Shown: in pieces, positions 25,682 to 47,312 of the stretch | Position numbering within the stretch: the first letter of the stretch is position 1 | How the letters are laid out: each line of letters opens with the position of its first letter | Assembly: GCF_020736365.1 (NCBI RefSeq) | Contig: NZ_CP085988.1 | Coordinates: 3,540,001 to 3,604,000, forward strand | Direction: 5' to 3' | DNA: 64,000 nt | Origin: Clostridium sp. M62/1 | GTDB taxonomy: Bacteria > Bacillota > Clostridia > Lachnospirales > Lachnospiraceae | Made by a program: the position numbers and the translations under genes | Notes under the pieces: model-generated | Told to the model about the DNA's origin: nothing | The model's database searches: none | What the model saw: only the letters and a program-made list of their open reading frames with translations

Positions 25682-26893
25682 TCACAGCTCATAATAGCTG
25701 ACTATCTCCTGCTCCAGCTTCACACCCCGCTCCAGCATATATTCTGCCAGTTCCCGGTACATCTCCTGTTTTTCCAGAGACTTCAGGCGCACTCGATCCT
25801 GCTCTGTCAGCGGATGCAGGCAGGACTGAAAGCGTACGTCTTCCAATTCCGCGCGCGACATCCGGTACATCTGAAACGGGATACCGGTCACACGGCACAA
25901 ATGCTCATGGATATAAAGCCCTCCAGCGTCGATATCTCCGAAATGGCGGTAGACAAGCGTTGGATTGTCGGAAAATATTTTTTTCAGGAAGTCTCTCTGA
26001 TAACGGGTGGCATAACCGCCCAGATAAAATAGAGCTGTTTTCGAGCTGTCACACCTCAGCCAGGAGGTATAGTTTTCCACCGTAGTAAAAACCGCCGTTT
26101 TGACCGTTATCTGCTCAATCTTATACAGTTCATCAGCAAAAAATTCAATACCGTTGGGAAACGCCCCAATCTCCAGTTCTTTCCCAAGGATGCGTACCGT
26201 CATATCCCCCTTCAGGCACAGCTTCTGCTTTTCCCGTGTAATATGATATTCCTCCAGGATCTCGTCTTCCAGCTCTGCTGGGCCGCATGGACGGCCCAGG
26301 CAGTCCCGGAGTGCCCTGCAAACGGATCCCAGCACATTTTCCTCCAGATATTTGGAGTCCCCGTAGATCAGCAGAGAAGCTTCGCGCAGATACAGTTCTT
26401 TCTCATTATTCTCAATAAAGACAAGTGCTTTGAGAAGGTCTTCCGTCTGATGATATCGGGGCGGAATCCTGTTCTTTTCCAGAGCCTGACGCAGCTTTAT
26501 ACACTCCTGTTCCGCTGCGGGCGAACGTCCGCTGTACCCGGCAATCAGCCCTTCCACGTACTTCCGTTTCGCAGATTTTGGCTCATATCCATATTTTGTT
26601 TCCAGATAGTCCTCGATCTCGCCGATTTTTTCATCCACCAGATAAATGCTCTGGATCTCGCTGCTGAATCCCTCTGTCTCATAGGTCACAAATCCTTCTT
26701 GACTGCACCGGAAAATCGCCTGATTCACTGCCTCAATCTGTGTCATATCGCCGTCGTTGCGGCTGTAATTCTTATAAAGCTGAGACGGATTCAGTTTTGT
26801 CCGTCTCGTAATCACATTGGTCCCCCTGTCTTTTTTGCTCTTCCTGTATTTATCCGCCAGGGCAGCCAGCAGCTTTTCTTCGTAATTCACCAT
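25682..26893 (-). CDS. jetD: Wadjet nuclease subunit JetD
   Basis: JetD is the topoisomerase-VI-like nuclease that cuts circular DNA trapped by the JetABC motor. The 403 residues have an N-terminal DUF3322-like part and a C-terminal DUF2220/Toprim-like part, with the acidic motif FGDIDAGG at Asp320 and Asp322. ATG 26893 follows GAGGGG, which overlaps the end of jetC (10 nt between genes). Beyond the TGA at 25682 the same frame stays open for about 39 codons (beginning KNLWDDLHTDMEADII) before a TAA at about 25564. This may be a premature stop or a chance extension. Confidence 0.9.
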   Translation of the reverse strand: MVNYEEKLLAALADKYRKSKKDRGTNVITRRTKLNPSQLYKNYSRNDGDMTQIEAVNQAIFRCSQEGFVTYETEGFSSEIQSIYLVDEKIGEIEDYLETKYGYEPKSAKRKYVEGLIAGYSGRSPAAEQECIKLRQALEKNRIPPRYHQTEDLLKALVFIENNEKELYLREASLLIYGDSKYLEENVLGSVCRALRDCLGRPCGPAELEDEILEEYHITREKQKLCLKGDMTVRILGKELEIGAFPNGIEFFADELYKIEQITVKTAVFTTVENYTSWLRCDSSKTALFYLGGYATRYQRDFLKKIFSDNPTLVYRHFGDIDAGGLYIHEHLCRVTGIPFQMYRMSRAELEDVRFQSCLHPLTEQDRVRLKSLEKQEMYRELAEYMLERGVKLEQEIVSYYEL

Positions 26894-26903
26894 ATCTGTC
26901 CCC

Positions 26904-29900
26904 TCACCGGCTGCTGTACGCCTTTTCTTCATGGAACTGCACGATCCCCAGCTGCATACTGTCCGCGCGCACACGCAGCGCAGGCAGGATTACCTCGCAC
27001 TCGTTCCCGATGGATTCCGTCTTATCCGGAGAGCAAAAGATTACCTGGAGTCTCTGCTCCCGCATGAATTTCAGCATCAATTTCACATTGCCGGGATCCA
27101 TCTTGGCAAACGGCTCATCGATAAATACGAGACGTGTGGAATTGGTACGCTGGTTGTAAATCAGCAAAAGGGCCGACGACAGGATCAGCAGATACGGGAT
27201 TTGCACTTCCGCCCCGGAGTTGAAACCAGTCTGCCGGGATAATTTTGCCCGGTCCAGGATCTGGTTGCTGATCAGAATCTCATAATTCATATAGTTCCGG
27301 TAGTCGGCAAAACGGGCAATCGTTTCTTCACTGTTCTTTTCGATGATCCGGTTGATGATCTGCTTCATCTCTGTTTCTAACCGCTCGCCTTCCTCATCGG
27401 ACACAGAGGTCAGCATATCGAAAGCGATCTGTCCGTCTGCATTGCCTCCCAGCTGCTCCCGCTCGTCCAGATATCGGGCGTATTCAATCACCTTTGCGTA
27501 TTCTGACCCGTCCTTTACATAGTGGACATCAAACTGATATTTTGCAGCAAAGCTCAGCTTTGCCAGTTCTCCGTTGATCTGCCTTAAATCTTCTCTGGCA
27601 CGCTCACAGGATTTCAGAATCGTCAGCACAAATTCATTTTTAAATATGTCCTCATATCTGCGGGTCTGCTCTTCCAGTTTCTGACGGATTTCCTGAAGAT
27701 TGTCCATCCAGATGCGCTCTCTTCTGCCTGCATACCGTTCTCTTCCCTCCGTCCCTCTGGGCAGCATGCGTCCGGCATGTTTTGCGTTATAATCCGCCTG
27801 CTTCTGCGTCAGATCTCTTTCATGCTGCGTGATACTGTTTCCTATACGCCGTCTGGTATCTTCCGCCAGCAGGCCGCCCGGACCTTTCTTTCCATTTTTC
27901 AGGTATTTTTCATAGGCCTCTACCGTCCGCTGCACGATGGTATAGTACCCGGTCTGATATTCCCGGTACCGCTTCTCCTGTTCGGCCAGTTCCCCTGATT
28001 TTGCCTCTATCTTCTCTCCGCATCTGGATATGGTCGTGTCCTGTCCGCTTTTCTCCTGAAGTTTTGCGTTATATTCGTTCTGCACCGCTTTCTGTTCATC
28101 TGAAAGCCGGCCAGCCAGCTCGTTCAGCTCCAGATATTCCTGATTATTCTCCTGCGCTTTTTTCAGGCGCTCCAGCTGCGCCTCCGACGCCCTGGCGTTT
28201 TCCGACGCGGCCTGGTATTTTCGGTGGGCGTCATAGTCATACTCCTGAAACATCTCCCGATTCTGGGCCATACGGTTCTTCTGATCTTCAAGCTCCTTTT
28301 TCTCTGCCAGTTTTGCTTTCCTCTCCTCGTTGAGCCTGGAAATCTCTTTTTCCGCGCGGAGCCGGTTCAGTTCAAACGTCTTCTGTCCAAGATAATAGGA
28401 ACGGAGCCTGTCAAAACGCAGAAAATAGCTGTCCATAGCTACGGACACGCGGCCTTCCCTGGAAATGGCATTTTCATATTCCTTCACAGCATTTCGCTCC
28501 ACCGCATGCATTCTTCCCAGCTGATAATCAAAATACTGTTTTGCCACCGGGTTTTTGATCTCCAGTTTAAATACCGCTGAGTCTTCTTCCACATGTACTT
28601 TTTTCTTCATCAGCAGCTTTGTGTTGAACAGATGGGCATAACGATGTTCCGAACGGTTCAGCACGTCATCTGCAATATCATAATACTGAGGGTCCACCAG
28701 GATCGTATACCGGCGCGGTCCCAAAAATGCCTCGATGGCGTCCCTCCATTTTTCATCTGTGAGTCCAATCACGTATTCACAGGCAAACTGTGCTTTCGAC
28801 CGGATGTTTCTCTTTTCAAATTCACGGTTGATCTCATCACGCAGCCCCACATACTCTGGAATCTGAGCAAACGTATTGCGATGTTTTTTACAATCCTCTA
28901 TGATCCGGTGCTGCACGTCCAGACTCCGGTTCAGTTCTGCCAGATCCCTCTCGGTATCTGCCGCTCTCATCACCAGTCCGTCGTAACACTCGTTTATTTT
29001 CTGTTTGAACCTGGATACTGCCGCCGCCTTTTCCGCAGCCGTGTGCCCGCGCCCGCAGAGGGACGCCAGCACGTTCTGACCCTCCATCCGTTTTTCCTTT
29101 TCAAAAAACTGATTCATCAGTTCGCTGACCACGGCCTGAAAATGCTCCAGCTTTCTGCACAGAGCCATCAGCGTCCTCTTCTCAGCCTCCAGTTCCTCTA
29201 ATTTTCGTCTTTCTTCTGCGATCATCCGGGTACTGTCCAGCTGCTCCAAACTGACTCTGGCCTGCACCAGCTGAGCGTCAATTTCTTTTTTTCTTCCATC
29301 CAGAATCTCCAGTTCCCTCTCCAGATCTTCCTTTCTTCTCTGTGCCAATTCCTGTTCAGCTGTCTGGCGCTCAATCTCCCGGTTCAAATCTTTCCTCTTT
29401 TTATAGATGATGCGGATATCATCAGCCAGCAGACGGTTTTTCTCGCTCTCCCATGCATCGTACTCCCCAAGAATCCCATCCAGCTCGTTAATCTCCTGCT
29501 GGATAATCTCAAAATTCTCGTTCAGCCGCTCAATGTTCTCCTTCGCCTGAATCAGTTTCCCGAAATCCACGTTCCGTTCTTCCAGGACGCTCTCCCGGAT
29601 AAACCGGTCAATCCTGGCGTTCGGATCGTATGACATGATTCCCCGAAGCTTGCGCAGATAGATGGGAAGCTGTCCCAGATTCAGCTTCAGTCCCGTCATC
29701 TGCAAAAATTTCGGCAATCCCTGCTCCCGGTTCATCAGCGTCAGTCTGTATCTTTTTTGAAGGAACGACGCGCTGCAGGGCATCGTGACGCCGTTCTCTT
29801 CATAAGTATGTTCCACCTGCTCCATGACCCTCCGGTCCATCACGTAACGATACGTCTGGCAATTATTGGACGCGCTGGTCTCAATTACCGTCCCCAGCAA

Positions 29901-30221
29901 AAAAGACTTATCCTCCACATCGTCAAAATACTCCAGCACAATGTGGCTGTACACGTTTGGCACCCGGTCCGCCGGGCGCATGTACGTCCCGGCTGTGGCA
30001 TCCAGAAGACCTCTCGTATAGGAGGACAGCGTACGGCTTCCTTTACTCTCCGACGACTTGTTAAATACCGTATCTCCGTAAGCGGCATATTTAATTGCAT
30101 CCAGCATGACGGATTTTCCGTTGCCGTTCTTCCCTGCAATCAGCGTAAAAAAACCGATGGGAGCCGTCACATTGGAAAATCCATACCAGTTGATCAGCCG
30201 CACTTTTTTTAGCAGGATCAT
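26904..30221 (-). CDS. jetC: Wadjet SMC-like ATPase JetC
   Basis: JetC is the MukB/SMC-like motor that extrudes DNA loops and senses small circular DNA. The 1,105 residues start with a P-loop, GKNGNGKS, at residues 30-37. Two long coiled-coil arms (rich in Glu, Lys, Arg and Gln) flank a central hinge-like region near residues 460-620. At the C-terminus come a signature-like FNSGAEVQIPYLL and Walker B LVFIDEPFAKMD with Asp1035-Glu1036. Its ATG overlaps the jetB stop as ATGA. Confidence 0.94.
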   Translation of the reverse strand: MILLKKVRLINWYGFSNVTAPIGFFTLIAGKNGNGKSVMLDAIKYAAYGDTVFNKSSESKGSRTLSSYTRGLLDATAGTYMRPADRVPNVYSHIVLEYFDDVEDKSFLLGTVIETSASNNCQTYRYVMDRRVMEQVEHTYEENGVTMPCSASFLQKRYRLTLMNREQGLPKFLQMTGLKLNLGQLPIYLRKLRGIMSYDPNARIDRFIRESVLEERNVDFGKLIQAKENIERLNENFEIIQQEINELDGILGEYDAWESEKNRLLADDIRIIYKKRKDLNREIERQTAEQELAQRRKEDLERELEILDGRKKEIDAQLVQARVSLEQLDSTRMIAEERRKLEELEAEKRTLMALCRKLEHFQAVVSELMNQFFEKEKRMEGQNVLASLCGRGHTAAEKAAAVSRFKQKINECYDGLVMRAADTERDLAELNRSLDVQHRIIEDCKKHRNTFAQIPEYVGLRDEINREFEKRNIRSKAQFACEYVIGLTDEKWRDAIEAFLGPRRYTILVDPQYYDIADDVLNRSEHRYAHLFNTKLLMKKKVHVEEDSAVFKLEIKNPVAKQYFDYQLGRMHAVERNAVKEYENAISREGRVSVAMDSYFLRFDRLRSYYLGQKTFELNRLRAEKEISRLNEERKAKLAEKKELEDQKNRMAQNREMFQEYDYDAHRKYQAASENARASEAQLERLKKAQENNQEYLELNELAGRLSDEQKAVQNEYNAKLQEKSGQDTTISRCGEKIEAKSGELAEQEKRYREYQTGYYTIVQRTVEAYEKYLKNGKKGPGGLLAEDTRRRIGNSITQHERDLTQKQADYNAKHAGRMLPRGTEGRERYAGRRERIWMDNLQEIRQKLEEQTRRYEDIFKNEFVLTILKSCERAREDLRQINGELAKLSFAAKYQFDVHYVKDGSEYAKVIEYARYLDEREQLGGNADGQIAFDMLTSVSDEEGERLETEMKQIINRIIEKNSEETIARFADYRNYMNYEILISNQILDRAKLSRQTGFNSGAEVQIPYLLILSSALLLIYNQRTNSTRLVFIDEPFAKMDPGNVKLMLKFMREQRLQVIFCSPDKTESIGNECEVILPALRVRADSMQLGIVQFHEEKAYSSR

Positions 30222-30859
30222 TCCTCTTCCTCCTCAAATTCATCCGGAACTATTTCTTCTGGGCCTTCTTCTTCCGGTTCTTCTTTTAAATATTCCCGCG
30301 CCACAGTCTGAAACTGTGGGAGATCCCAGCCGAATTGCAGCGATGGATAGAGCTGAATTTTCATATCCTCGCCCTCCTCATCATCGTTGAAATTGATCAG
30401 GCTGTATTTTTTAAACAGGCGAAGCGCTGCGCTAAATTCCGTGCGCGTCAGCTGAACATCATAGGACTTGATCTTGTCAATCAGATCCCCTCTCGTCACA
30501 AAATTTCCTTCGCTGTAACCGAGATTTTCCAGATATACTTTCCAGAGCACCAGCAGCAGATGATACTGCAGCGTCGAAAACGTCACCACATTGGCCCGTT
30601 TCAAGCCTACTGTATCCGCATCCTCTTCGCTGGCAGCCAGCATGCACACTCCCGTCTTCTCCTCCACGATCATATCAAAACCAATCATTCGCAGGTACTC
30701 GGAAATATCCTGTCGATTGGATTCTCTGGAGGCAAACTGATACAGTTTTTCATCCTTATCCCGCAGTATGAAAGTGGACTCCAGCAGTTTTCGTATGCAG
30801 CGTTTGAACAAATGTCCGCTTTCCTCTTTTATCGTTATCCGCAAACTGATATCGCTCAT
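30218..30859 (-). CDS. jetB: Wadjet subunit JetB (DUF4194, MukE-like)
   Basis: JetB is the KITE/MukE-like accessory subunit that binds the JetA kleisin. The 213 residues match DUF4194: a winged-helix pattern with FSTLQYHLLLVLWKVYLE, FVTRGDLIDKIKSYDV and TRTEFSAALRLFKKYSLI. The tail is very acidic (EEPEEEGPEEI). ATGA overlaps occur at both ends with jetA and jetC, which shows tight coupling. Confidence 0.9.
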   Translation of the reverse strand: MSDISLRITIKEESGHLFKRCIRKLLESTFILRDKDEKLYQFASRESNRQDISEYLRMIGFDMIVEEKTGVCMLAASEEDADTVGLKRANVVTFSTLQYHLLLVLWKVYLENLGYSEGNFVTRGDLIDKIKSYDVQLTRTEFSAALRLFKKYSLINFNDDEEGEDMKIQLYPSLQFGWDLPQFQTVAREYLKEEPEEEGPEEIVPDEFEEEEE

Positions 30860-32268
30860 GTTTTCTTCCTCTTTATGCTGATATTGCTGATTCTGGCGGC
30901 CTCGGTCTCCACCATGCCCTTCCTGAATTCCACTTCATAAGGAAACCCTGACGTCCCCGAATAAATCATACTTGCCGCGATCATCGTCGCATCGTCCCTG
31001 GTATGTACTCCGCATTCTTCCACAGAAATCTGATCTCTGCCTCTCATGATCTCATCGAAATGTTTCTCCACGTTGTCCATACTGTACCGATCGGGCGTCT
31101 CCGTCAGAAGTTCGTCCGTCAGCCGCTGTTTCTCTTCTTCCGACAATTCCTCACAGACTAAGCCCGCATTTTTTTGATTGGGATTTCGCTTTTTCCGCCG
31201 TTCAAAAGACTTTCTTCCGATATATCCCATGCTCATGAGGCGGTGTGTTTCTGAAAGCTTTGAGAGTGCTTCCGCCCGGTTCTCTTCGTTCAGATTTTTC
31301 AAAAACAGAAGTATCCGGTTCAGTTCATGCTCCAGATTGGTATTTTCACTCAGTACCATCATCATCCGGGTAGAATACAGATTGTAGTAGTTGTTGATTT
31401 TCCGGTCAATGTAAGACATCTCCTGCTCATATTCCAGGTTAATGAAGCTGTCCAGCTCGTTAAACAGACGGTCAATCTTCTCCTTTGCCTGAATCTCGTC
31501 TGTGTTTTCTATTTTTCTATACTCCTGGATCATCCGGTCATAAAGCTCCGAGTGGCGCAGTTTTCTCAGCATCCGGTCAATGTCCGAAATGTAAGAAGGA
31601 ATCAGACCACTTTTCTTAATGAAAAAATAATCATTGAAAAAACGGTTCAGGAGTTCATCCTTCATCAAAAACTGACCGAAACTGTTGGCGTCTGCCATCT
31701 TCATAACTGCACGCATAATTTCACGGATACTGTCTTTCAGAATCAGAAGTTCATTTTTCAAGTCACATTCATTTTCTACCAGTGGAATCAGGATGTTCTG
31801 ATACGGACGTATCGACCGGGCATTGTCTTTGCTGAAGGAAAATTTCAGGATTTCATACATGGAAAAAATATAATTCGTAATCGCGCCATTGGCGTCTCCA
31901 TCAAAAATCTTATGGATTGCGTCAATCAGCTTACGGCAGTATGCCGATACGGACGCGATATTGTCCCCGCTGCGCCCGATTTCCTGCGGAGTAATCCATC
32001 CGCATGCACGAAAATACCTGAGAATTGTGGAGGCGTTCTCCTGAGGAGTTTTCCCGCCAGCAATCTCTTCTCCAATATTTTCCGTTTCTATGGAGTATGT
32101 GCAATTTTGAAGATACAGAATCAGTGTGTTTCTGGCGTCCGTTTCGTACAAAACAGAGATTTCCTTTGATTTTTCGATCAGCTGGCTGATACATTCAAAA
32201 TAGAGCACCCGATTTCTGCAGCAAAAAGGATTAAAAAATTTCTCGTTCAATGTTTCAAAAAAAGACAT
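30856..32268 (-). CDS. jetA: Wadjet subunit JetA (DUF5716 type, kleisin-like)
   Basis: JetA is the kleisin-like bridge of the Wadjet complex. The N-terminus MSFFETLNEKFFNPFCCRNR and the following helical protein of 470 residues fit the DUF5716 JetA family, which differs from the DUF3375 JetA of type I systems. This suggests a Wadjet type II locus. It is the first gene of the jetABCD operon. ATG 32268 has AGAGGAG about 13 nt upstream, a little far. Confidence 0.88.
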   Translation of the reverse strand: MSFFETLNEKFFNPFCCRNRVLYFECISQLIEKSKEISVLYETDARNTLILYLQNCTYSIETENIGEEIAGGKTPQENASTILRYFRACGWITPQEIGRSGDNIASVSAYCRKLIDAIHKIFDGDANGAITNYIFSMYEILKFSFSKDNARSIRPYQNILIPLVENECDLKNELLILKDSIREIMRAVMKMADANSFGQFLMKDELLNRFFNDYFFIKKSGLIPSYISDIDRMLRKLRHSELYDRMIQEYRKIENTDEIQAKEKIDRLFNELDSFINLEYEQEMSYIDRKINNYYNLYSTRMMMVLSENTNLEHELNRILLFLKNLNEENRAEALSKLSETHRLMSMGYIGRKSFERRKKRNPNQKNAGLVCEELSEEEKQRLTDELLTETPDRYSMDNVEKHFDEIMRGRDQISVEECGVHTRDDATMIAASMIYSGTSGFPYEVEFRKGMVETEAARISNISIKRKKT

Positions 32269-35678: not shown

Positions 35679-35815
35679 CTCTTCTGTCTCAGGGTTCTAA
35701 GCCTGACTGATATTTCCGGCCGGAATCATCCAGGCGAAATTTTTTGCCAAAGGTTTAAAATCACAGTTTTCAGAGACTTCATGAGCCTGCCTGTACGGGA
35801 AGATCGTGATGTTTC

Positions 35816-35852: not shown

Positions 35853-35865
35853 CCTCCTCTGCTCT

Positions 35866-36216
35866 TTAAAAATCCATATCTTCCGATTCTTCTTTTCCGC
35901 AGTCTGTGCAGATATCCCTGGAGGATGCGCCGCCCACGGATACATAGGTATCGCCCACAGCCGCTGCAGCACCGAAAGATACAGGCACAGCTACGCAGAT
36001 GTCCTGGGTGATAGTGAAAGAGCATGTTCCGTTTTTCTGTCCGCTGCAGGAGGTCTTTCCCGGAGTTACAACGGGCTCGCCGCAGCATTTGGTGTACGTC
36101 ACTCCTGCTTCTGCGTAGGGAGTAATAGTCACAGGAACGCAGATGGATGCGCTCTGGTAGCCCGTAGCAGGGCAGGTCTGGTTCTCAGTCTCTGTTTTTA
36201 AAATATCGTTATTCAT
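35866..36216 (-). CDS. Cysteine-rich protein of unknown function
   Basis: The 116 residues contain nine cysteines, including the pairs TKCCGE and CTDC. Repeated beta-like blocks (ASICVPVTITPYAEAG and QDICVAVPVSFGAAAAV) suggest an internal duplication. There is no signal peptide or membrane segment. Proteins of this appearance occur in Clostridial spore formers, and a surface or spore-coat role is possible but unproven. ATG 36216 follows AAGGAG with an 8-nt gap. Confidence 0.7.
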   Translation of the reverse strand: MNNDILKTETENQTCPATGYQSASICVPVTITPYAEAGVTYTKCCGEPVVTPGKTSCSGQKNGTCSFTITQDICVAVPVSFGAAAAVGDTYVSVGGASSRDICTDCGKEESEDMDF

Positions 36217-36295
36217 GATAAATTCTCCTTCAAAATTAATAGGTTCATATTACTTTATGAAGGATGGGACTTGTTTGTTACCGTACCCTGTGTTC

Positions 36296-37240
36296 CTATA
36301 TTCCCTCGTCTCCGAAGAAATCCGTATCCATCTTTTTTATTTTATACACATACTCTGTGGTGACGCCGAAATCGTACTCAATCATCAGCTCTGTCAGCCT
36401 CCTGCCGTCGACCAGAATCACCTTTGTCGTATGCTGCTTTTTGGCGTAAGCCGCGGCATCTTTTGAAAACTGGGCCGTTGTGATAAACAGCCCCTTTGTG
36501 GCGCCCTGACCGGCTAATGCTCCTACAAATTTCTGAATCTCCAGTCTTCCCACCGTTGTGTCGGGGGCCCACTTTTTCGCCTGAATATAAATCAGATTAA
36601 ATCCCAGTTTATCCTCATAGATAATGCCGTCTATCCCCTCGTCGCGGCTTGACTGGGTCACGGTTCCTGCCGCAGGCTCCCCGTATCCCAGAGCCTTCAG
36701 AAGCCTGACCACCATTTTCTCAAAAAATTCAGGCGTCTGTTCACAGACTGCCGAAAGCAGTTCATCTGCCAGCTTGCTGTTGATCTCTGCGTGAGCCCTC
36801 TCCAGTATCTCCTGGGGGGTCTCTGAGACGGCATCCTCCCTCTTGGCCTCTTTTTTCTTCCCTGTCAGGGCAGGAGGATGGGAAGGCGCAGGTTCCCCCT
36901 CTCTCCTTTTAAACTCCTGAAAGGAGGGATACCTTTCCAGTACAGAATCGTCAATGACCTCTCCCGACTTAAAAAGCCGTTCTCCTTCTTCTGTAATCCG
37001 GAATTCTGCCCGCTTGGGGCTTTCTATCAGCCCTGCTTTTTTCAGATACGTCCTGCACCATCCCAGCCGGTTAAGCCACACCGGCTGCCTGCCGCTGGGC
37101 AGCATCTGGGCCATCTCCTCCTCTGTCAGTTCAAAATCCCGGATCACCTGCTCCTTAATATCCTTAAGGGTATGTACCTTTCTGTCTGACAGGGCCCTTA
37201 AAAATGAATGGTACATCTCAAAATATTTTGGCACCGCCAT
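36296..37240 (-). CDS. mrr: Mrr-type restriction endonuclease
   Basis: Mrr enzymes cut methylated or otherwise modified DNA. Residues 1-90 form the Mrr winged-helix DNA-binding domain (YHSFLRALSDRKVHTLKDIK, PVWLNRLGWCRTYLKKAGL). Residues about 175-290 form the PD-(D/E)XK nuclease domain, with FFEKMVVRLLKALGYG, the catalytic Asp in SRDEGIDGIIYED, and the QAK motif in LIYIQAKKW. The full length of 314 is normal. ATG 37240 follows GGGAGGTG. It lies in the defence island beside the RT gene. Confidence 0.95.
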   Translation of the reverse strand: MAVPKYFEMYHSFLRALSDRKVHTLKDIKEQVIRDFELTEEEMAQMLPSGRQPVWLNRLGWCRTYLKKAGLIESPKRAEFRITEEGERLFKSGEVIDDSVLERYPSFQEFKRREGEPAPSHPPALTGKKKEAKREDAVSETPQEILERAHAEINSKLADELLSAVCEQTPEFFEKMVVRLLKALGYGEPAAGTVTQSSRDEGIDGIIYEDKLGFNLIYIQAKKWAPDTTVGRLEIQKFVGALAGQGATKGLFITTAQFSKDAAAYAKKQHTTKVILVDGRRLTELMIEYDFGVTTEYVYKIKKMDTDFFGDEGI

Positions 37241-37282
37241 CAGTTCACCTCCCAGTCCTTTTCTCTCCCCGATGATACAGCA

Positions 37283-37311
37283 AGTATATCATATACTCAG
37301 GAAACTTTGAA
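37283..37311 (-). promoter_or_regulatory. Likely promoter of mrr
   Basis: TTCAAA (37311-37306) and TATACT (37288-37283) on the minus strand, separated by 17 nt and about 43 nt before the start codon. Confidence 0.55.
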
Positions 37312-37352
37312 GCGTCTTTAAATGGGGTGAAATCAGTGGCATGCAGACATTT

Positions 37353-38070
37353 TTAGACTGCTATGCCTATACTCCTTCTATAATCTAGAGGACTAGGTCC
37401 TCCGAGTGTTGATTTGATTTGATCTTTACAATACCAATACATATAACTGTCTATCTCCTGGATAAATGCCTCTACACTATATTGAGCCCAATTACGTCCA
37501 TAAAACAGTTCTGTTTTGAAATGACCAAAGAAACCCCCACATGCAGAATTATCTGGTGAACAACCTTTCTTGGATATAGATCGTGTGAAGTTTGCATCTT
37601 ACATTATCTGAATTCATTCCGATCAGCGATAGTGGCATCCTCTGTCAGAATATACAATCGTTTTCTCGTTTGATTTAAGTATAGCAATGGCATTCCTCAG
37701 CATAGTATTTACAAGTTCTGCGTTCAGAGAAGTACCTATTGTCTAACTTACTAGCATACCGTCAAGGCAGTCGATTATCGGAGACAGATATATTTTTCCA
37801 GCTTTTATAGAAAATTCTGTAATATCAGTAAGCCATTTCTCGTTTGGTTTGGCAGCACGGAAGCCTCTATCTATAACATTCTCCACAGCCGGTGTTATTT
37901 CACCTTTATAAGAGTTGTATTTCTGTCTGAGTTTTCGTCTGATTATTAGATTCTCTTGCTTCATAATACGGCGAACTACTTTTTCAGAAGCCTTTGTACC
38001 TTCATAATACAAAATAAAAAGTGAATATCTCTCTTTTCTGGGTAGAATCTGCTTTTCAAATTACATTTCT
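37353..38070 (-). pseudogene. IS3-family transposase (OrfB) remnant
   Basis: The reading direction gives KASEKVVRRIMKQENLIIRR, then the integrase core start NEKWLTDITEFSIKAGKIYL, SPIIDCLDG, YSDRGCHYR, and finally KKGCSPDNSACGGFFGHFKT and NWAQYSVEAFIQEIDSYMYW. Several positions where Trp is expected carry TAG or TGA, for instance directly after DGMLVS and after CHYR. The 5' half is missing. It is decayed by point mutations, separates mrr from the giant RT gene, and shows old mobility of this spot. Confidence 0.85.
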
Positions 38071-38141
38071 GATTAAATTCCGTCTTACACTGCAAACTAA
38101 ACCATTTCTGGTTCCCATACCCTTTTCCAAATTAATTGTTT

Positions 38142-38192
38142 TATCATCTTTTTTATGATATATTTGACATAATACAACAATATTTTCAATAT
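38142..38192 (+). promoter_or_regulatory. Promoter-like region with inverted repeat upstream of the RT gene
   Basis: TATCAT/ATGATA (38142-38147 and 38155-38160) form a 6-bp inverted repeat. It is followed by TTGACA (38164-38169) and, 17 nt on, CAATAT (38187-38192). The -10 is poor and close to the ribosome site AAGGAG (38199-38204). The true start of transcription may therefore lie further upstream. Confidence 0.4.
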
Positions 38193-38211
38193 TTTGACAA
38201 GGAGAACCCAT

Positions 38212-41200
38212 ATGGCTGAATCTTATCTCAGTTACATCAAACATAACGTCAAAATCAGGGACATCTGTCGTATCCTTGGTATCCCTGTCTACTCCGGCAC
38301 TTCCGGCGATCGGTGTTCCTGCCCCTTTCATGACGATCACACTCCCTCTATGTACCTTTATAACGACTCAAACCTAGCTTATTGCTTTTCCTGTCAGAAA
38401 AGCTGGGACAATCTGGAGTTTATCGGTGAAAAGCTGGATTTAGACTTTCAGGGACGCCTTTCATGGATGGAAAAACATTTTCCCGAGCTTTTAAAGCAAA
38501 AGAAGACTTTCCCTGTTTTCCCCCAAAAAACTCTTCAAAGCGGCTATGATATTGCATTTCAGGCGTATTCCAATATGTCAGATAAAGAACAGCGCCTGCT
38601 AAAGGAATTTTGTGGTCATCGCGGCTTTGAAGAACCGTTTTTTGAAAAACAATCTATTTTCTGTGCGGCAAAAAATAAGCTGTCTTCTCTCTACTGCCGC
38701 AGTGAAAACTCAACTGATGCAAATTTAACTATAGAGGAGAGGCTAAAGCTTGAAGACTGCAAACTGGTCATAAAGCTTCCCTGGCAGGAAAGGCAGACGG
38801 CGCCCAGGTACAGCGATCATTTTTCCCGCGACGGCATTATTATTCCTCTCAGAGATTCCTCCGGCAAGCTCGCAGGGTTCGCTCAGCGCGCCCTTGATGG
38901 CACACAGCCCAAATATCTGTTTTCAAAAAATCTTCCGAAGAAAACTCTGCTCTATGGGATCGACTCTCTCAAAAAACGGCTCTCGGCTGCAAAAGCAAAC
39001 CAGAAAACAGATATTTTTATCGTGGAGGGAATCTTTGACGCCCTGCGCATTGAATCCCTGGAAAAGAAAAATATTTCTGCTCTGGCTGTTCTGGGAAACC
39101 GTCTGACTAAGACTCAGGCAGGGGAGCTTCAAAATGTTCTGTCCGGCAGCAGCGGACTGTCTATCCATATCTGCATGGATGCTGACCGTGCTGGAAGAAC
39201 CGGAAATCTCGAAACTCTGAAAAGTCTCTGGGCATATTCTGATTTCATGAAATACTATATAGACTTTTGGGTTCCGCTGGGAGAAAAGGATCCCGATGCC
39301 GCCATACAGGCCGCCCTGAAAACTCCATCCGGCACAGGTGCTTCCTCTAAATCCGGCAGCAGCAGGGCAAAAAAGTATTTTAAAAGGTTGTCTGTGTTTG
39401 AGTATATCGTATACTGTCTTCTGCCAGCGGACAATGAACTCCTCCTGTCCCCCCTCACCTCCAAAAGCAGCGTCAGAACAGCCTATCAGAATCTTTCCAC
39501 TGAGGCTAAGCTTCTGTGCCTGAGCCGAGTCCGCTACCTCTTTTCGCACAGCACATGGGATGAGATCTTCCACCTATATGGCAGTATCATCGCTGATTCG
39601 AACCATTCAGGAATGCAGAGCTCCGGCAATACCTCTGCAGATTCTGAAGCATTTTTCTACCGTCTGATTCATGCTTATGTTACAGACTCCTCCGTAGGTG
39701 AAAATGACAGAACTGCTTTCGCAGTCCCGGCTGTTCCCTATGATGCCATGTATCACTTTAAAACTGCCCTACAGATTGCAAAAACAAGCTACGACCGAGA
39801 ATCGCTCCCCCTGGATCAGGCATCCTGGGAAAGAATCCTGAGCTGCGCCGATACCTTTTTTGCTTTTTTCAGAGAAACCTTTGAGGAACACAGAAATATA
39901 AAAATTCCGCTTTTGAGCATTTACTACCCCAAAAAGCTGAATGAATACAGGATGAAATCTGTCTACATCCACGAAAGACTGATTCTTCAGCAGTATATCC
40001 TAAATGAGCTCCTCAGGGCTGATGACAGAAACTGTGAGGCTCTGGTTCCTGCTGTCCGTTACAGTCAGAGCACTGGCCGTCTGTACACTACCTTTTGGAA
40101 CCAGACAGACGAAACTGACGATACCTTGAGCTTTGCCTACCAGATTGATATGGATGTCCTGTCCGGGCAAAGCGATCTGGAACACGGAATGTTCCGAAAC
40201 TACTATGACTGCTGGAAGGGGTATATTGAATATATCCAGGACGGTATTTCCCGTTTAAACAGCGATAATGTCTACCGGGTCAAACTGGACATCCGGGGAT
40301 ATTATGACCATATTCCCAGGTACGCGGTGAGAAATGTTCTGTTTAAAACTATCAGCGAATTGATCCGGATCGACAATAATAAATTTTCCCTCTTCTTCGG
40401 AAAAAATAGCGCAGAAGAAAGTATCGATCTGCAGGAAAAAGCAGAAACTGTCACCCGCTGGATCCTAGATGAATTGTACGAACCATATTTCTATGATCCT
40501 CAAACAGGCGAAAGGCGAAAAAAAGACCATTCAACAGTTGGTATCCCTCAGGGTCCAAACCTTTCCGCCTATATCGCCAACATCATTCTGTTTGATATGG
40601 ATCAAAAAATCAGGCAGTACATAAAAAAAGTGAATCCCGCTGACTCGGAGAGCCCAATCCAAGTGCGCTATGCACGCTATGTAGATGACATGATTATCAT
40701 AGCCTCCAATGCGCGTGATCTGAATCATATAAAGGATTTAATTCTGAATGAGCTCTATTCCATGGGACTTACCCTCAGTCCCAAAACTGATCAAGAAGAC
40801 AGTATTTCCAAGGAGGAAGCCCTGGAATGGACGACCAGTGAGAAAGGAGGCCTCGGGGTTTCTGCTTCCTTCGATTTTCCTGATGATACTCTGGACGACA
40901 CGCTAGATGACCTCGACGGCTATGAGGTAACTGACCGAAGAAGCGCTCTCAAACTGCTACAGAGTTCTCTGTATCTTACCGATGACGAGCTTTTATCCAA
41001 AAAGATTGATACAAAGCAGTTTATCCAGACTCTGTTCCGGACAGAGGAAATCCGTTTCGGTGACATGGTGCGAATCTCTGAGATTCTGCTGTTAAAACTA
41101 TCCTCTTCCCACTTGCCTGAGTCAACAGCTGATCCCGTTCCCACTCTTCTGGAACAGTTTACAGAGCTTTGGAAGCTGGGACGGCAGGAGAGTCCCGAAG

Positions 41201-44200
41201 GTTCCCTCTTTCAAAGCGAGGGTATCGAAATTTTCGCCTTTATTGAGGGATGCGGGAAAATTTTAAAGAGCAGGTTCTCTCTCCGCTTCCGAAACCAGCC
41301 CAGGCAGGATGCCTGTAAGAAAATTTCGGAATACTTTCGCCAGGAGAACGGCCTCTCTGCCATAAGCTGTATACTGCAGAAGCAGACGCTTCTAGCTAAA
41401 AACAGATGGATTCTGCTGCTTCGCCTGGCAGAGATTTGCTCTTATCTGCAAGTTTCCGGAGCGCAGATTCGCTCCGAGCTGGTGGGTCATGTGCCTAATG
41501 AATATACCTACAGGTGGTTCTATGCCCTAGAAGAGCATGCCTCCTGCTCCTTAAAGACAGATTTTCCAAGGTGTACAGAGGAAAAAACCCTGACTGACTT
41601 TCACCATGCTGTTTCTCTTCTTTCTGCTCTTTCTCTGCCCGACCGCGAATCAAAAGAAGCGCAGAAAGCTAGCAAGGATTCTTCTTCTGATGAGATTCAG
41701 CAATATAATGCAGTTCAGGAGCGCTTTAAAGAAATACAGTCAAGCCTGAGAGAAAGCTCGGAAAGCACGGTATCCACTGGATCTTCGACCATGCTAGGCC
41801 GATGCCTGAATTGCTGGTTCTCCAATCAGGATACACCGCCGGACACAGAAGGAAATGCAGGACTCCTCTCTCTGTCTCTCCTTACGCTTCTGGGCATAAT
41901 ACAGGATTCTGTGAAGGCAGACATTATATCTCTGATTCCAGAATATCAGAATCATTTATTTCAGGTACGGGATGCCTGGAGTTACTGTCTCCCTATCCTG
42001 CCAGGCGTCGGTTATCCAGGCCTTATTATGGCAAAGGCTTCCATGGATGTAAATGCAAGCTATATCTTGATGCGTACTGATTTTATCAGCAGCCCGATGG
42101 TAGAACCTAGCAAAAACTGGGATGAAACTGCGCCTGACAAGAACTCATCTGCTTCTTCTGCTTATCATTTATATAAAAGCAGCCTTAAGGCAGGTTTTGT
42201 CCCCCTGGATACACTGATTCCTGCCTTTGAATACGACGCTCTGTCACCCGACAAGTGCCAGATTATGTTTAAATGCCTAGTTCAGCTTTACAAACCTTTA
42301 TATGAAATGTTCAAAAAACTTGCAAAAATTGCTTCCACAAAAATAGGCAGCATATCGAATACAGAATATTCTGTTATTCTTTCCAAAAAGCATATTTTTG
42401 TCAGGAAGTCTGCCGGTAGTTCTCCTTTTGAAATCCAGGCTATCGCCTACCTGCTTCCAAAAAGCACAGCCGGCGATGGTGTCCTGATAGAACAGGGCAA
42501 AGGACGTTTTTCCTTTAAACCGCTGTATGGAGACGGAATATCTCTGTGGAAAGTCGGCTGGATCCTGAGGGATATTTGCAGTTTTGACGCCCTGCGGTTA
42601 AAATTTTTCAATATGGAAGCTCCCACGTCAGACATCGAACTGCTGGTCTCCATGATGGAATACACCTTTAACCGCCTGACAGGAAGCAGCGCCGCCGCTC
42701 TTAATGCCCACAGAAGCCTTCTATCCTACGAATGTTCTGTCAACAGGGCGCTCTCTATAACAGAGCAGTTTCTGTCCTGCCCGAAAGATCGGGCTGTCCT
42801 TCTGGAAGAGAATGCTGCCGTTGATTCCTTCATCAGCTATCGGATGAATATTGCGGGAGGGTTATCAGCTCCCTGGGAATTCAGTTATTTTGCTGCGGTC
42901 TGGGCCAAGTCCTATCTTCGAAGCGGATTTACACGCCTTATGAAACTGGCGCAGCAGGAACCCTGCCGTACCAAAACAAATTCCTGCGCACTCCGCCGCG
43001 TCCCCTTAAGCTATCTCTGCCTAGCTGACAGAATCATGGAGCTTGCTGCAAAGCTGCCGGAAGGCAGCCATTCCTGCAGCGGACTTAAGGTTCTGGAGTG
43101 TGGACTCAGAGCTGACGCCGCTCTGATCCAGCTTCGTATGCAAACCCTGGAGCTTTTGGAATCCTTCAGCTCAGAACAGATGGAGCATTTAAAGAAACAG
43201 TCCGAAGAGCTTCCTCTTTCCGCGCTCGGACTGGACGATACCCAGCCGCTAATGTTTTATAACGCTGAATTATACCCTCTTGTCAAGAATCTGCTCGATC
43301 GCAAACATGACAGGGCTGTCGGCAAAGTAACTCATCTGGGCTGGATTGTCCTCCTGAAATGGCTTCTGGATTTTGACAACTGTGACGCAGACGGAACACT
43401 GACAGGCTTTCTGAAGGACTGGTGCGGCAGGCTTACCAGATATGCGGATTCCAAAACAGCGCAGGATGGTTCCACAAAGCCCCAAGAACTCCCCTTCCCA
43501 TTTGAGCAGATGGAGTCTTTTCTCTCCCTCTGGACAAGGGAAAATACCGAAACCTTTTTTGAAAGCTGCTGTCAGATAGATCAGAAAACAGGCACTGCCG
43601 TCCAGACAAAGCATACTGACTTTCAGTATATGCACGCTGCAAACAAATTCGTATCTGTCATAGTGGACGGAAACATGATGAGAAAGCCAAATTATTTTCT
43701 CACCTTCAGCAAGCTGACAAACGCTCTGATTTCAGTGGAGGAGGATGAGAGCGGGCAAAAGGTTTATACACAGAGCGTCAGAGGAGGAACCGTTACCGGT
43801 ATTTCTATCGTGGAAATCCGTCTGGGTAAAATCATTCAGAACTGTGAAAAAGCATGTACAGAGCAGAAACAGATGCCTGCAAAGCAGGAAGAGGAGCAGG
43901 CAGAAAAATATTCCGCCTCCCTGCCAGAGCTTCCGCAGGCGGCTTCGGAGCAGGTAGAAAAAACGGCGGCAGAAACAGCTTCTGTTTCCTGCCCTCCCCC
44001 TGAGCCGCCTCAGCCTCCTGAATGCGAAACGTCTTCTCCAGTCTCCCCCGAAGGCGCAAACCCTGCCGAAAAATTGGAGGTGCTTCTGAAAGACAGCCTG
44101 AGAAAACGGACAAAACGTTTTTCCAACTATGACCGGATTGCCCTGTTTCAGTTTGACACAAAGAGCAGTTATTATCATCCCTGTACAGAGATCTGCAAAT

Positions 44201-45885
44201 ATGCCCGCACATGCAAGGGAGTGGAAGCTGATACAGATACGCTGGAATACAGCTGTGAAGAATTTCGCCGGCAAAAGCTTCTGGAAAAGGTCCTGGAACT
44301 CTGTGAAGCCCTGAAAATTGACATTCTCCTGCTGCCAGAATACTCGGTACGCCCGGAAACTGTCCGTTTTCTACGGGAATTAATGGAAAATAAACATAAA
44401 AGGGATCCTTCCTCCTACACTTTTTCTATCTGGGCTGGAACATTCCGAATCCCTCCGAACTATCAGTTTGACAGCGACACCTTCCAAGAACTCTCAGGAA
44501 GAACGGACATTTTCCACTCTGCCGTCCTACCGGTTATTATGCAGGTTCCGGGAAGCGAAAATTTTGCTGCTTACTGCCGCAGATTTAAAAAATATCCATC
44601 CGTTACACTGAATGAGGATATTAATACTTATGTTCCTCATACGGAGCCGTACAAACCTGTCACCGAAGCAATATGGACAGAAAAAAAATATCAAACGGGA
44701 GAATGTTTAAAAGGAAGTCCGCACCTTTACTTTGACGCAAGAGATCACGTGACAGAGCTGATCTGCGCTGAGCTGTTCGCCCTGTCATCTCCGGGAAACA
44801 TGATGAGCTTTGCAGACCGTTCCTACCAGCTTTACCGGCAGTATGCGTGTCCTGAGCCTGCTTTGGGGGATGCCGCTGAAAAAAGTCGAGCAAAAAATGA
44901 AAATGACTTCTTCAAGGCAGCGATGGACGACATTCGCCTGTATGGGGAATCTATTTCTCTCTACAGAAAAGACAGCTGTGTCTGCCGTAAGTCTATTCTG
45001 CTGATACCTGCCTGCACAACCAGGGCGGCTGATTACTATATACTCGGGCAGGCTAACTACCTTGGCACAGGAACCAATACGGTATTCTGTAATGGTTCAG
45101 GCAGACTGGCTCAGGGAGGAAGCTGTTTTATTGGTCAGAATTCCTGGGACGACAGAAAAAACATGGGAGTGAAGGAGGATGCATTTCAGGTGACAAGTAT
45201 TTACCATGGACTTCTTCCTGGAATTTATCAACAGACCTCCAGTCAGCCTGGCAGGGGCGCTCTCGGCCCGAATGAGCAGGCCCTTCTGGTATGCGACGTC
45301 ACCCCTGAGCTCGATAAGCGCAGCCCAAATCCAGAGTCCATGAAAAATTCTCTTGAGCTGGTTGCGCACATTCCGATTCTGGAGGAACGCATCTACAGCA
45401 ATGAATGCCTGAGGTACTGCTGGTCAAGGGAGGAGGTTCCCCTTCTGGCATCTGATCGGAAAAAACAGTGCCAAATGATTCAGAGCTCTATACAACGCTC
45501 TGTACAGAGCACCAGAAACATGTTCGAGAACCTTAGCAGGCATTTAACTAATTGGAAGAACATAACGCCTCCGCTGTCCTTCAGCGATCCTGAACCATAT
45601 ATAATTTATGAGACATTGACTGAGCTGGGAAGGAAATACCATTCTGAATGGCTCGCGGAGCGCGGAAGACATTACTATCGCTGTCATCGTCTATTCCCCA
45701 GGTACTGGATTCCTGAAACAGCGCTGGACTGGCTCTATGTGGAAGTAGACTATTCAAAATTTATAGAAGCAGTAAACCATAAAGATGAAAAAGCGGGGAA
45801 TAACAAAAATTATCAGATTTCAGTTCCTCCTCTGGTGTCAGTTTCTCCGGAAAATGAAACAGATAAAATGGAACATAACAATTGA
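38212..45885 (+). CDS. Primase-reverse transcriptase-nitrilase fusion, putative defence protein
   Basis: This single 2,557-codon gene carries several modules. The order is: CHC2 zinc finger (Cys37-X2-His40, Cys58-X2-Cys61); DnaG-like core strand region near residues 205-240 (GIIIPLRDSSGKLAGFAQRA, KYLFS); Toprim with Glu272 (FIVEGIFDAL) and Asp323-X-Asp325 (CMDADRAGRTGN); reverse transcriptase with Asp693 (KLDIRGYYDHIP), GIPQGPNLSAY from 777 and YVDD at 823-826; about 1,100 residues of unknown helical sequence; a Pro/Glu-rich linker near 1930-2000; and a nitrilase domain with Glu2043 (LLLPEYSV), Lys2126/2127 and Cys2185 (LICAELF), followed by GGSCFIG. All catalytic residues are present. RT-nitrilase proteins are known as DRT-type anti-phage systems; the primase part is unusual. 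ATG 38212 follows AAGGAG. It stands alone, with no partner gene. Confidence 0.9.
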   Translation: MAESYLSYIKHNVKIRDICRILGIPVYSGTSGDRCSCPFHDDHTPSMYLYNDSNLAYCFSCQKSWDNLEFIGEKLDLDFQGRLSWMEKHFPELLKQKKTFPVFPQKTLQSGYDIAFQAYSNMSDKEQRLLKEFCGHRGFEEPFFEKQSIFCAAKNKLSSLYCRSENSTDANLTIEERLKLEDCKLVIKLPWQERQTAPRYSDHFSRDGIIIPLRDSSGKLAGFAQRALDGTQPKYLFSKNLPKKTLLYGIDSLKKRLSAAKANQKTDIFIVEGIFDALRIESLEKKNISALAVLGNRLTKTQAGELQNVLSGSSGLSIHICMDADRAGRTGNLETLKSLWAYSDFMKYYIDFWVPLGEKDPDAAIQAALKTPSGTGASSKSGSSRAKKYFKRLSVFEYIVYCLLPADNELLLSPLTSKSSVRTAYQNLSTEAKLLCLSRVRYLFSHSTWDEIFHLYGSIIADSNHSGMQSSGNTSADSEAFFYRLIHAYVTDSSVGENDRTAFAVPAVPYDAMYHFKTALQIAKTSYDRESLPLDQASWERILSCADTFFAFFRETFEEHRNIKIPLLSIYYPKKLNEYRMKSVYIHERLILQQYILNELLRADDRNCEALVPAVRYSQSTGRLYTTFWNQTDETDDTLSFAYQIDMDVLSGQSDLEHGMFRNYYDCWKGYIEYIQDGISRLNSDNVYRVKLDIRGYYDHIPRYAVRNVLFKTISELIRIDNNKFSLFFGKNSAEESIDLQEKAETVTRWILDELYEPYFYDPQTGERRKKDHSTVGIPQGPNLSAYIANIILFDMDQKIRQYIKKVNPADSESPIQVRYARYVDDMIIIASNARDLNHIKDLILNELYSMGLTLSPKTDQEDSISKEEALEWTTSEKGGLGVSASFDFPDDTLDDTLDDLDGYEVTDRRSALKLLQSSLYLTDDELLSKKIDTKQFIQTLFRTEEIRFGDMVRISEILLLKLSSSHLPESTADPVPTLLEQFTELWKLGRQESPEGSLFQSEGIEIFAFIEGCGKILKSRFSLRFRNQPRQDACKKISEYFRQENGLSAISCILQKQTLLAKNRWILLLRLAEICSYLQVSGAQIRSELVGHVPNEYTYRWFYALEEHASCSLKTDFPRCTEEKTLTDFHHAVSLLSALSLPDRESKEAQKASKDSSSDEIQQYNAVQERFKEIQSSLRESSESTVSTGSSTMLGRCLNCWFSNQDTPPDTEGNAGLLSLSLLTLLGIIQDSVKADIISLIPEYQNHLFQVRDAWSYCLPILPGVGYPGLIMAKASMDVNASYILMRTDFISSPMVEPSKNWDETAPDKNSSASSAYHLYKSSLKAGFVPLDTLIPAFEYDALSPDKCQIMFKCLVQLYKPLYEMFKKLAKIASTKIGSISNTEYSVILSKKHIFVRKSAGSSPFEIQAIAYLLPKSTAGDGVLIEQGKGRFSFKPLYGDGISLWKVGWILRDICSFDALRLKFFNMEAPTSDIELLVSMMEYTFNRLTGSSAAALNAHRSLLSYECSVNRALSITEQFLSCPKDRAVLLEENAAVDSFISYRMNIAGGLSAPWEFSYFAAVWAKSYLRSGFTRLMKLAQQEPCRTKTNSCALRRVPLSYLCLADRIMELAAKLPEGSHSCSGLKVLECGLRADAALIQLRMQTLELLESFSSEQMEHLKKQSEELPLSALGLDDTQPLMFYNAELYPLVKNLLDRKHDRAVGKVTHLGWIVLLKWLLDFDNCDADGTLTGFLKDWCGRLTRYADSKTAQDGSTKPQELPFPFEQMESFLSLWTRENTETFFESCCQIDQKTGTAVQTKHTDFQYMHAANKFVSVIVDGNMMRKPNYFLTFSKLTNALISVEEDESGQKVYTQSVRGGTVTGISIVEIRLGKIIQNCEKACTEQKQMPAKQEEEQAEKYSASLPELPQAASEQVEKTAAETASVSCPPPEPPQPPECETSSPVSPEGANPAEKLEVLLKDSLRKRTKRFSNYDRIALFQFDTKSSYYHPCTEICKYARTCKGVEADTDTLEYSCEEFRRQKLLEKVLELCEALKIDILLLPEYSVRPETVRFLRELMENKHKRDPSSYTFSIWAGTFRIPPNYQFDSDTFQELSGRTDIFHSAVLPVIMQVPGSENFAAYCRRFKKYPSVTLNEDINTYVPHTEPYKPVTEAIWTEKKYQTGECLKGSPHLYFDARDHVTELICAELFALSSPGNMMSFADRSYQLYRQYACPEPALGDAAEKSRAKNENDFFKAAMDDIRLYGESISLYRKDSCVCRKSILLIPACTTRAADYYILGQANYLGTGTNTVFCNGSGRLAQGGSCFIGQNSWDDRKNMGVKEDAFQVTSIYHGLLPGIYQQTSSQPGRGALGPNEQALLVCDVTPELDKRSPNPESMKNSLELVAHIPILEERIYSNECLRYCWSREEVPLLASDRKKQCQMIQSSIQRSVQSTRNMFENLSRHLTNWKNITPPLSFSDPEPYIIYETLTELGRKYHSEWLAERGRHYYRCHRLFPRYWIPETALDWLYVEVDYSKFIEAVNHKDEKAGNNKNYQISVPPLVSVSPENETDKMEHNN

Positions 45886-45996
45886 GCAGACGGGCTGAAC
45901 CATCACTCCCTATTGAAAGCAGAGTAGTTATTCTCTTCTCGGATAACAGGAATAACAGGACATAGCAAAATAGCCCTCTCAGAGAATATCGCAAAA

Positions 45997-46055
45997 AAAT
46001 CGGCTCCCAAGCGAAGCCTGAATGCTTCCAGGGGAGCCGATTTGCTGATTTTCAT
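45997..46055 (+). terminator. Terminator after the RT gene
   Basis: Perfect 12-bp stem AAATCGGCTCCC (45997-46008) with GGGAGCCGATTT (46032-46043), inner loop 23 nt, then GCTGATTTTCATTTTTA. It is about 110 nt past the stop. Confidence 0.8.
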
Positions 46056-46179
46056 TTTTATTTAATTTAGAAATTTTTTTGCAAGTTGCTATTGCGTTTT
46101 CCTTCCGCAACAGCATCTTTTATATCAAACCACAGGCCTCATCCTTGAGACTCACAAAAATGACGTTTTGACAGCCCGT

Positions 46180-46761
46180 CTACTTCTCTCCCTCTGCAGT
46201 CTCTTCCTCAGCTTCCGTATTGTGAACCGCATACACCGTCACAACCACAGCGTCCAAATCTGTCTGCAGATCTACATCCTTGTCGGAGGCGATGGCCAGA
46301 TCCCTTACCTTGATGGAATCTCCCACTCTCATATCTCCCACATCCAGCTCGATCTTTTCTACCAGAGCAGACGGCAGAGCCCTGTAGGAAACCTCATGAA
46401 GCACCTGCTGGAGCACTCCTGTCGTAACCTTCTCGTGGTTCAGCAGATGAATCTCTGCCACGGAGTGAACCTTCTCGCCGCTTACAAGGGCCTGAAAATC
46501 GATCTCCTCAACCTGTCCTTTCATGGAATTGTAGTCAACTTCCTTGATCAGAACATCCATGTCCTGACCGTCCACGTTCAGCATAATCTGGCTGCCGCGT
46601 CCGCTTGTCTTGAGAAGACGCTCCGCATCAGCCTTTACAATTTTAATCGGTATGGAGCCTTTAATCTCTTTTCCAAATACGTTTCCGGTAACAAATCCTT
46701 CCCGTCTAAGCCTCTTGGCCTTCACATCCATGCTTCTCTTCTCAGCTTTTAAAGTATTCAT
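46180..46761 (-). CDS. rplY: 50S ribosomal protein L25 / general stress protein Ctc
   Basis: It binds 5S rRNA in the large subunit. Residues 1-90 form the L25 domain (LKAEKRSMDVKAKRLRREG). Residues about 100-185 form the TL5/Ctc C-terminal beta domain (VSGEKVHSVAEIHLLN, GVLQQVLHEVSYRALP), followed by an acidic tail. The length of 193 is that of the long Ctc version. A single-gene unit, it starts the core genome again after the island. Confidence 0.95.
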   Translation of the reverse strand: MNTLKAEKRSMDVKAKRLRREGFVTGNVFGKEIKGSIPIKIVKADAERLLKTSGRGSQIMLNVDGQDMDVLIKEVDYNSMKGQVEEIDFQALVSGEKVHSVAEIHLLNHEKVTTGVLQQVLHEVSYRALPSALVEKIELDVGDMRVGDSIKVRDLAIASDKDVDLQTDLDAVVVTVYAVHNTEAEEETAEGEK

Positions 46762-47312
46762 TTATCTTTTCCTCCATCAAACTGACTGCCTGGGATGCTT
46801 AGCTGCCTTCAAATTTCGTCTGTTGGAAATAGGTTCGGTTAAGTATCTCTCTTTCTTTGTTACATCTGTATTATAACACTTCTGTCAAGACAATTTTGCA
46901 CAAATTCCAGATTGATTTTTCCTATTTTATGGTATTTTTTATGGTTATCTGCTAATTTCGAAAAAATCTTCACTTTTTCTATCTGATATCTTCCGGCAGC
47001 TCAGCCGTTTTCCTCCGTTTATAGGGCAGCGATTTCCCGTAAACGATCTGTAAAAATATTTTTTATGAATAAAACAGAACCGCTCTGGAAATACCTAAAA
47101 TGGAACTGTCCATTTTTCATCCGCTAAACAGCACAGTCTGCCGCTTTCCGGGCAGCAGCTTTTTCACCTGCTCCCTGCAATTTACAGCGTGCATTCCTTT
47201 GTTTCATCACATACTACAAAGAGTCAAGCATCCGCTCTGCGGACTGGCGGAAAACCGGGTTTTGCGGTTTTCCAGAACTTGCGGCAAGAAATGTGATAAG
47301 GAGGAAAGCGAT
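46762..47312. other. Divergent intergenic region between rplY/ctc and spoIVB
   Basis: About 550 nt. On the minus strand an extended -10 (TGTTATAAT, with TATAAT at 46875-46870) probably drives ctc, with no good -35. Close to spoIVB a 9-bp hairpin, GGAAAACCG/CGGTTTTCC, lies at 47249-47273. The frame open from 47100 is an upstream extension of spoIVB without a start signal. Confidence 0.5.

Follow-up and report, generated by a model that had tools for sequence, protein, structure and literature searches.

Class 3 of the UG/Abi defence-associated reverse transcriptases (DRTs) joins a UG-type reverse transcriptase (RT) with a nitrilase or a phosphohydrolase (PMC13275509). DRT1 synthesizes DNA without a template, beginning on Ser402, the loop 382-478 being unresolved in its structure, and the three class 3 DRTs tested (DRT1, DRT5S and DRT5L) start template-free on protein (PMC13275509). 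DRT7 (UG10) is an RT-primase-polymerase fusion for which preprint evidence, conveyed through a review, indicates duplex-like DNA on protein (PMC13213688). Here we describe a gene in a 64,000-nucleotide stretch of Clostridium sp. M62/1 (contig NZ_CP085988.1, positions 3,540,001 to 3,604,000; hereafter the window), whose 2,557-residue product, encoded by a single open frame, starts with a complete DnaG head made up of zinc finger, polymerase core and Toprim and continues with an RT and then a nitrilase, as identified by profiles and predicted folds (Table 1). Judged from its sequence and modelled folds, the polypeptide carries all three modules with intact key residues, as the initial annotation of this stretch had proposed.

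Placement of this protein in the candidate group UG29 is firm. Searched against profiles of UG and DRT reverse transcriptases, as the initial annotation had suggested, it matched the RT_UG29 profile (PADLOC-DB 2.0.0, PDLC03767) along its whole length, with 1792 bits over residues 1-2540 and profile positions 1-2276 of 2280, and we found no difference from that group, which is known as a profile. The DnaG-RT-nitrilase architecture is thus an already catalogued one, and the initial annotation, which knew of no described system with a DnaG-type head before the RT, needs correcting in this respect, although our searches found no experimental study (see below). Mestre and others 2022 is the likely source of the UG29 group and may already contain a description of its domains.

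The head shares with cellular DnaG the zinc domain, the polymerase core and the Toprim domain with their active-site residues and differs in that an RT occupies the place of the helicase-binding domain. The part that aligns with DnaG cores reaches to about residue 495 and the RT fold begins near residue 510, which leaves about 15 residues between the two; no Pfam match to a helicase-binding domain was found after the core at E ≤ 1, and there is no room for one before the RT. Since the RT starts where the helicase-binding domain would follow, the head is seemingly untied from the helicase and set on the RT. The Pfam DNAG_N match to the head was slightly below its cut-off, and the DnaG-type zinc finger and Toprim of the N-terminal part, for which the initial annotation had called for a fold check, are supported by profiles and the predicted fold. 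The nitrilase yielded no match in Pfam and none in a profile search of PDB sequences, and was identified by its predicted fold and HHalign instead. The structure models drew on 44 sequences each, and residues 1191-1364 lie outside both.

The searches gave the best 120 of 189 relatives, in a further search the best 120 of 338, and the best 80 of 166 loci in named genomes. Of the 121 proteins made up of the first 120 and the query, seven of ≤2,150 residues were omitted, all of which retain every key residue within their span, and the remaining 114 were combined with 35 loci into an alignment of 149 rows that holds some near-copies. These 35 loci have a single frame of >2,300 residues and belong to 41 UG29 loci recognized by long matches (L009-L049), the others being four that leave the contig and two with split genes; among the loci listed are Lachnospiraceae, Oscillospiraceae, alpha-, beta-, gamma- and deltaproteobacteria, Verrucomicrobiota, Planctomycetota and Acidobacteriota. 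Toprim, RT and nitrilase residues (E272, D276, D323, D325, D360; D693, Y698, YVDD at 823-826; E2043, K2126, E2135, C2185) are present in 149/149, R226 and Y235 in 148/149, and D362 and K234 in 143/149, while the zinc ligands (C37, H40, C58, C61) are present in 144/149 and the remaining five rows are gapped there. When 66 dereplicated UG29 heads were compared with 28 cellular DnaGs of the phylum, all 66 matched 28/28 DnaGs at the zinc ligands, R137, R226, E272, D276, D323, D325 and D360; Y235 was found in 65/66, position 234 was Lys or Arg in 66/66 (Lys in 63) and position 243 Lys or Arg in 65/66 (Lys in 47). A single branch (Shimodaira-Hasegawa-like approximate likelihood ratio test, 100) separates the UG29 heads from the 28 DnaGs. 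In addition, the four parts of the protein (primase, RT, middle and nitrilase) show correlated distances, with r of 0.88-0.96 against 0.07 for the best of 200 permutations. The conserved active sites and correlated distances therefore indicate, at the level of sequence, that the modules have diverged together, forming a stable assembly whose active sites are under selection.

Natural versions of the system exist in which the chain is divided. In Pseudoalteromonas (L025, 9983-18286), two overlapping genes correspond to residues 1-1209 and 1209-2521, and in Aureimonas phyllosphaerae (L020, 813-8549) three genes encode the primase (16-445), the RT with the helical part (501-1763) and the nitrilase-bearing part (1766-2547), in which the key residues are intact. 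A search with the third Aureimonas gene returned the Aureimonas protein and four others, 49-80% identical, some of which come from short contigs and are perhaps truncated. The modules seem to work together without having to share one chain, and the divided versions offer handier proteins for biochemistry. The PADLOC model RTasDnaG-like matches both the Aureimonas primase gene (813-2063, 310 bits) and the nitrilase-bearing gene (6075-8546, 247 bits); since these two genes are unlike, the model may derive from two unlike proteins. In another genome (L089 and L091), the two matches of the Drt1a profile, one to an RT gene and one to a distinct nitrilase-like frame about 1.8 kb away, may mark a further split DRT of the nitrilase type.

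Behind the RT lies a position, 884, that exchanges serine and tyrosine in a loop that the model shows as flexible (mean predicted local distance difference test of 55 for the poorly ordered residues 881-890), much as the loop 382-478 of DRT1 is unresolved; this is a new observation. Across 149 proteins the position holds Ser in 122, Tyr in 23 and Thr, Pro, Asp and Asn in one each (Ser, Thr or Tyr in 146/149), and in the active-site alignment of 149 it holds Ser in 119 and Tyr in 26. When columns at least 90% filled were scanned, it was the only one of 2,557 with at least 93% Ser/Thr/Tyr and at least 5% each of Ser/Thr and of Tyr. On a quick RT tree (131 rows of <92% RT identity, columns around 884 excluded, four rows with neither residue left unlabelled), starred branches oblige the Ser/Tyr label to change at least twice, once for an alphaproteobacterial and once for a Pseudomonas clade; the tree has long branches, and the direction of change is indeterminable from it. 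Two proteins with neither residue at 884 (P0069 and P0075) have a tyrosine adjoining the site, and the three-gene Aureimonas version has Tyr there. Because both amino acids can carry DNA, the exchange fits a priming residue. DRT1 Ser402, located through structure 9YFD, corresponds to S416 in a DRT1 used for comparison (L088), which matches the Drt1a profile with 1347 bits over positions 4-1176, and is Ser in 119/119 DRT1s (119 rows kept, one of ≤1,250 residues dropped). Of the 16 HHalign runs, 9 paired S884 with S416, as did one of three MAFFT modes, so that S884 is predicted, on a low-confidence alignment, to be a protein-priming residue. This predicted site makes the mechanism directly testable by a few point mutants.

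The protein shows the class 3 trait, a UG-type RT and a nitrilase in one protein, as judged from RT profiles and from nitrilase fold and residues, the class being assigned by composition. Likeness to DRT1 (UG1, class 3) comprises an RT, a helical part and a nitrilase in one chain, the nitrilase residues and a serine in the loop behind the RT; DRT1 differs in having 1,229 residues and no DnaG head. The Drt1a profile did not match the UG29 protein over its full length, its best stretch covering residues 660-858 only (59.8 bits). Drt1b is a membrane protein with which some DRT1 systems are partnered, and a Drt1b gene follows UG29 in Pseudoalteromonas and in Psychromonas (L039). Kinship with DRT1, and with it the earlier assignment to the defence-type RTs, is supported by the nitrilase fold and tetrad, the RT profile match and Drt1b beside these two relatives. 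DRT7 likewise has a primase-type domain fused to an RT, but its primase is an archaeo-eukaryotic primase-polymerase, whereas that of UG29 is a DnaG/Toprim primase of bacterial type and is accompanied by a third module, the nitrilase; no archaeo-eukaryotic primase-polymerase domain was matched by Pfam in the UG29 protein at E ≤ 1, and among the matches listed the best stretches of the UG10 profiles fall in the RT part (residues 772-858 and 637-859).

Our preferred reading, with somewhat less than even confidence, is that one protein serves as a whole phage-defence device: the RT would start DNA on its own Ser884, a second strand would be primed by the DnaG head, and the infected cell would be arrested by the nitrilase. 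By comparison with DRT1 Ser402, the RT would begin on Ser884 without a nucleic-acid primer, leaving this residue covalently joined to DNA. The DnaG head might then make short RNA primers on the tethered DNA, which the RT would extend to a duplex comparable to that of DRT7; this step is a guess. As in DRT1, the DNA on protein would assemble the nitrilase and keep it quiet until phage replication enzymes free it and the cell is harmed, and the nitrilase is presumably the effector by analogy. One chain would thus hold three chemistries: DnaG-type primer synthesis, probably primer-free DNA synthesis by the RT, and the nitrilase. Support for this reading comes from the full-length UG29 profile match, the intact residues, site 884, the joint divergence of the modules, Drt1b, and the adjoining Wadjet and Mrr genes, and phage defence is a likely role of UG29. 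Several observations weigh against it. The activity of the DnaG head and its choice of template are assumed, as a guess. In MAFFT, S884 paired with residue 412, four residues off, in two of three modes; 7 of the 16 HHalign runs did not give the S884-S416 pair (three end earlier and four global runs fail), per-position confidence around 884 was zero and run probabilities were ≤8%. The authors of the DRT1 study report that conservation of S402 does not extend to the other class 3 DRTs (PMC13275509). The PADLOC RT scores behind UG29 are nearly tied (Drt1a 59.8, UG34 59.2 and UG10_large 58.5 bits), HHalign found no sequence kinship between the UG29 middle region and the DRT1 helical domain, and Drt1b occurred only twice among the neighbours scanned with PADLOC (137 of 203, chosen as at most three per side and 150-1200 residues). 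Finally, a literature search covering few subscription papers found no experimental or mechanistic work on UG29 or on any protein joining DnaG, RT and nitrilase.

A doubtful but more far-reaching possibility is that UG29 is a double-strand DNA writer with an executioner, in which synthesis starts on Ser/Tyr884, a captured DnaG provides for the second strand and the carried duplex restrains the nitrilase until phage enzymes disturb it. UG29 would then parallel the DRT7 RT-primase fusion, having been assembled independently and with DnaG as its primase, and if the second-strand idea is true, two unlike primases, archaeo-eukaryotic in DRT7 and DnaG in UG29, have been recruited to finish protein-bound DNA begun by an RT.

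The initial annotation had the primase make the primer for the RT. A corresponding alternative, in which the DnaG head synthesizes an RNA primer on single-stranded DNA of phage or host for extension by the RT, Ser884 is structural and the nitrilase acts as effector, is consistent with DnaG active-site residues kept right before the RT and with the adjacent separate primase, RT and nitrilase-bearing genes of Aureimonas. It leaves the conserved Ser/Tyr near the priming place of DRT1 without explanation, and DRT1, DRT5S and DRT5L start on protein without a template (PMC13275509). We consider it unlikely. First-strand priming by the primase is disfavoured because the conserved Ser/Tyr aligns, at low confidence, with the DRT1 priming serine; a role on the second strand suits the head better, although this too is a guess.

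The head could also be a sensor that binds phage replication DNA, helicase or single-stranded DNA-binding protein and thereby controls an RT-nitrilase of DRT1 type, without itself having to polymerize. DnaG zinc domains bind single-stranded DNA, which agrees with such a role. The requirement of T4 Dda helicase for DRT1 activity (PMC13275509) agrees with it as well. Nevertheless, E272, D276, D323, D325, D360 and R226 occur in 66/66 heads, and a pure binder would not need these residues of the metal and nucleoside triphosphate sites, so that we give the sensor only a small chance.

A replication protein of a mobile element, not serving defence, seems quite improbable. Primase and polymerase in one chain, the integrase and transposases of the window and two plasmid matches among 72,556 would suit it, but plasmid matches are this few, the six matches among 50,697 phage records cover the primase part only, and viral relatives (the best 80 of 89 loci) are all short RT-only matches; moreover, the nitrilase is left without explanation and defence genes adjoin. 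Carriage of UG29 by viruses was rejected on the same viral matches. In retron Eco2, which like UG29 has RT and Toprim in one protein, the Toprim is the effector and a noncoding RNA is needed (PMC13275509, PMC12405507); UG29 instead has a whole DnaG head ahead of the RT, and no Rfam family reached its gathering score in window positions 30000-50000, a search that retron RNAs outside Rfam would escape. That the head is an Eco2-like nuclease effector, with the nitrilase serving assembly, is highly improbable, the invariant Toprim acids notwithstanding, as conservation also extends beyond the Toprim fold, to the zinc finger, R226, K234/Arg, Y235 and K243/Arg, and the nitrilase residues are invariant.

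Table 1. Features of the UG29 gene and its surroundings, in window coordinates
Feature	Position	Strand	Details
UG29 gene, 2,557 amino acids	38212..45885	+	ATG start; AGGAG-like ribosome site at about 38200
CHC2 zinc-binding domain, DnaG type	38233..38505	+	residues about 8-98; C37, H40, C58, C61; Pfam 4.3e-10
DnaG RNA-polymerase core and Toprim	38530..39693	+	residues about 107-494; E272, D276, D323, D325, D360; R226, K234, Y235
Reverse transcriptase domain	39739..40956	+	residues about 510-915; D693, Y698, Y823-V-D-D826
Ser884, predicted protein-priming residue	40861..40863	+	alignment column and pairing with DRT1 Ser402
Post-RT helical domain	40957..41631	+	residues about 916-1140; resembles that of DRT4, AbiK, AbiA and Abi-P2
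Middle region, about 830 amino acids	41632..44124	+	mainly helical; beta-rich near residues 1795-1868
Nitrilase domain	44125..45342	+	residues 1972-2377; E2043, K2126, E2135, C2185
Helical C-terminal tail behind nitrilase	45343..45882	+	
Mrr-type restriction endonuclease	36296..37240	-	Pfam Mrr_cat 9e-33
Wadjet JetABCD genes, about 6 kb from UG29	25682..32268	-	Pfam JetA 1.5e-86, DUF4194, SbcC_Walker_B, JetD_C
Integrase-core (rve) transposase fragment, directly upstream of UG29	37743-38012	-	below Pfam cut-off

Within the family sample, UG29 was found in 1 of 397 genomes, and within the genus in 1 of 8, in both cases the genome of the window itself (E ≤ 1e-100). This rarity and the neighbouring genes fit an acquired defence gene without proving defence, and, because there was no control set, no enrichment in defence islands is claimed. 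A DEDDh/RNase T-like exonuclease, which may trim the DNA product, was present five times among the scanned neighbours and lies downstream of UG29 in alphaproteobacteria (L016, L018, L021 and L022). A foreign origin inferred from composition was rejected: the gene has a low G+C of 0.44-0.48, which says little on origin because much of 14-20 and 30-48 kb of the window is likewise low. The search for an empty insertion site was also abandoned; SpoIVB is present in 8/8 and L25 in 4/8 genomes of the genus, and no clean comparison is available because the two lie on separate contigs in the other genomes having both. The low-G+C part of the window at 14501-20347 holds a lone type I specificity subunit, a Fic protein, a Mutator-family transposase and a phage-type integrase.
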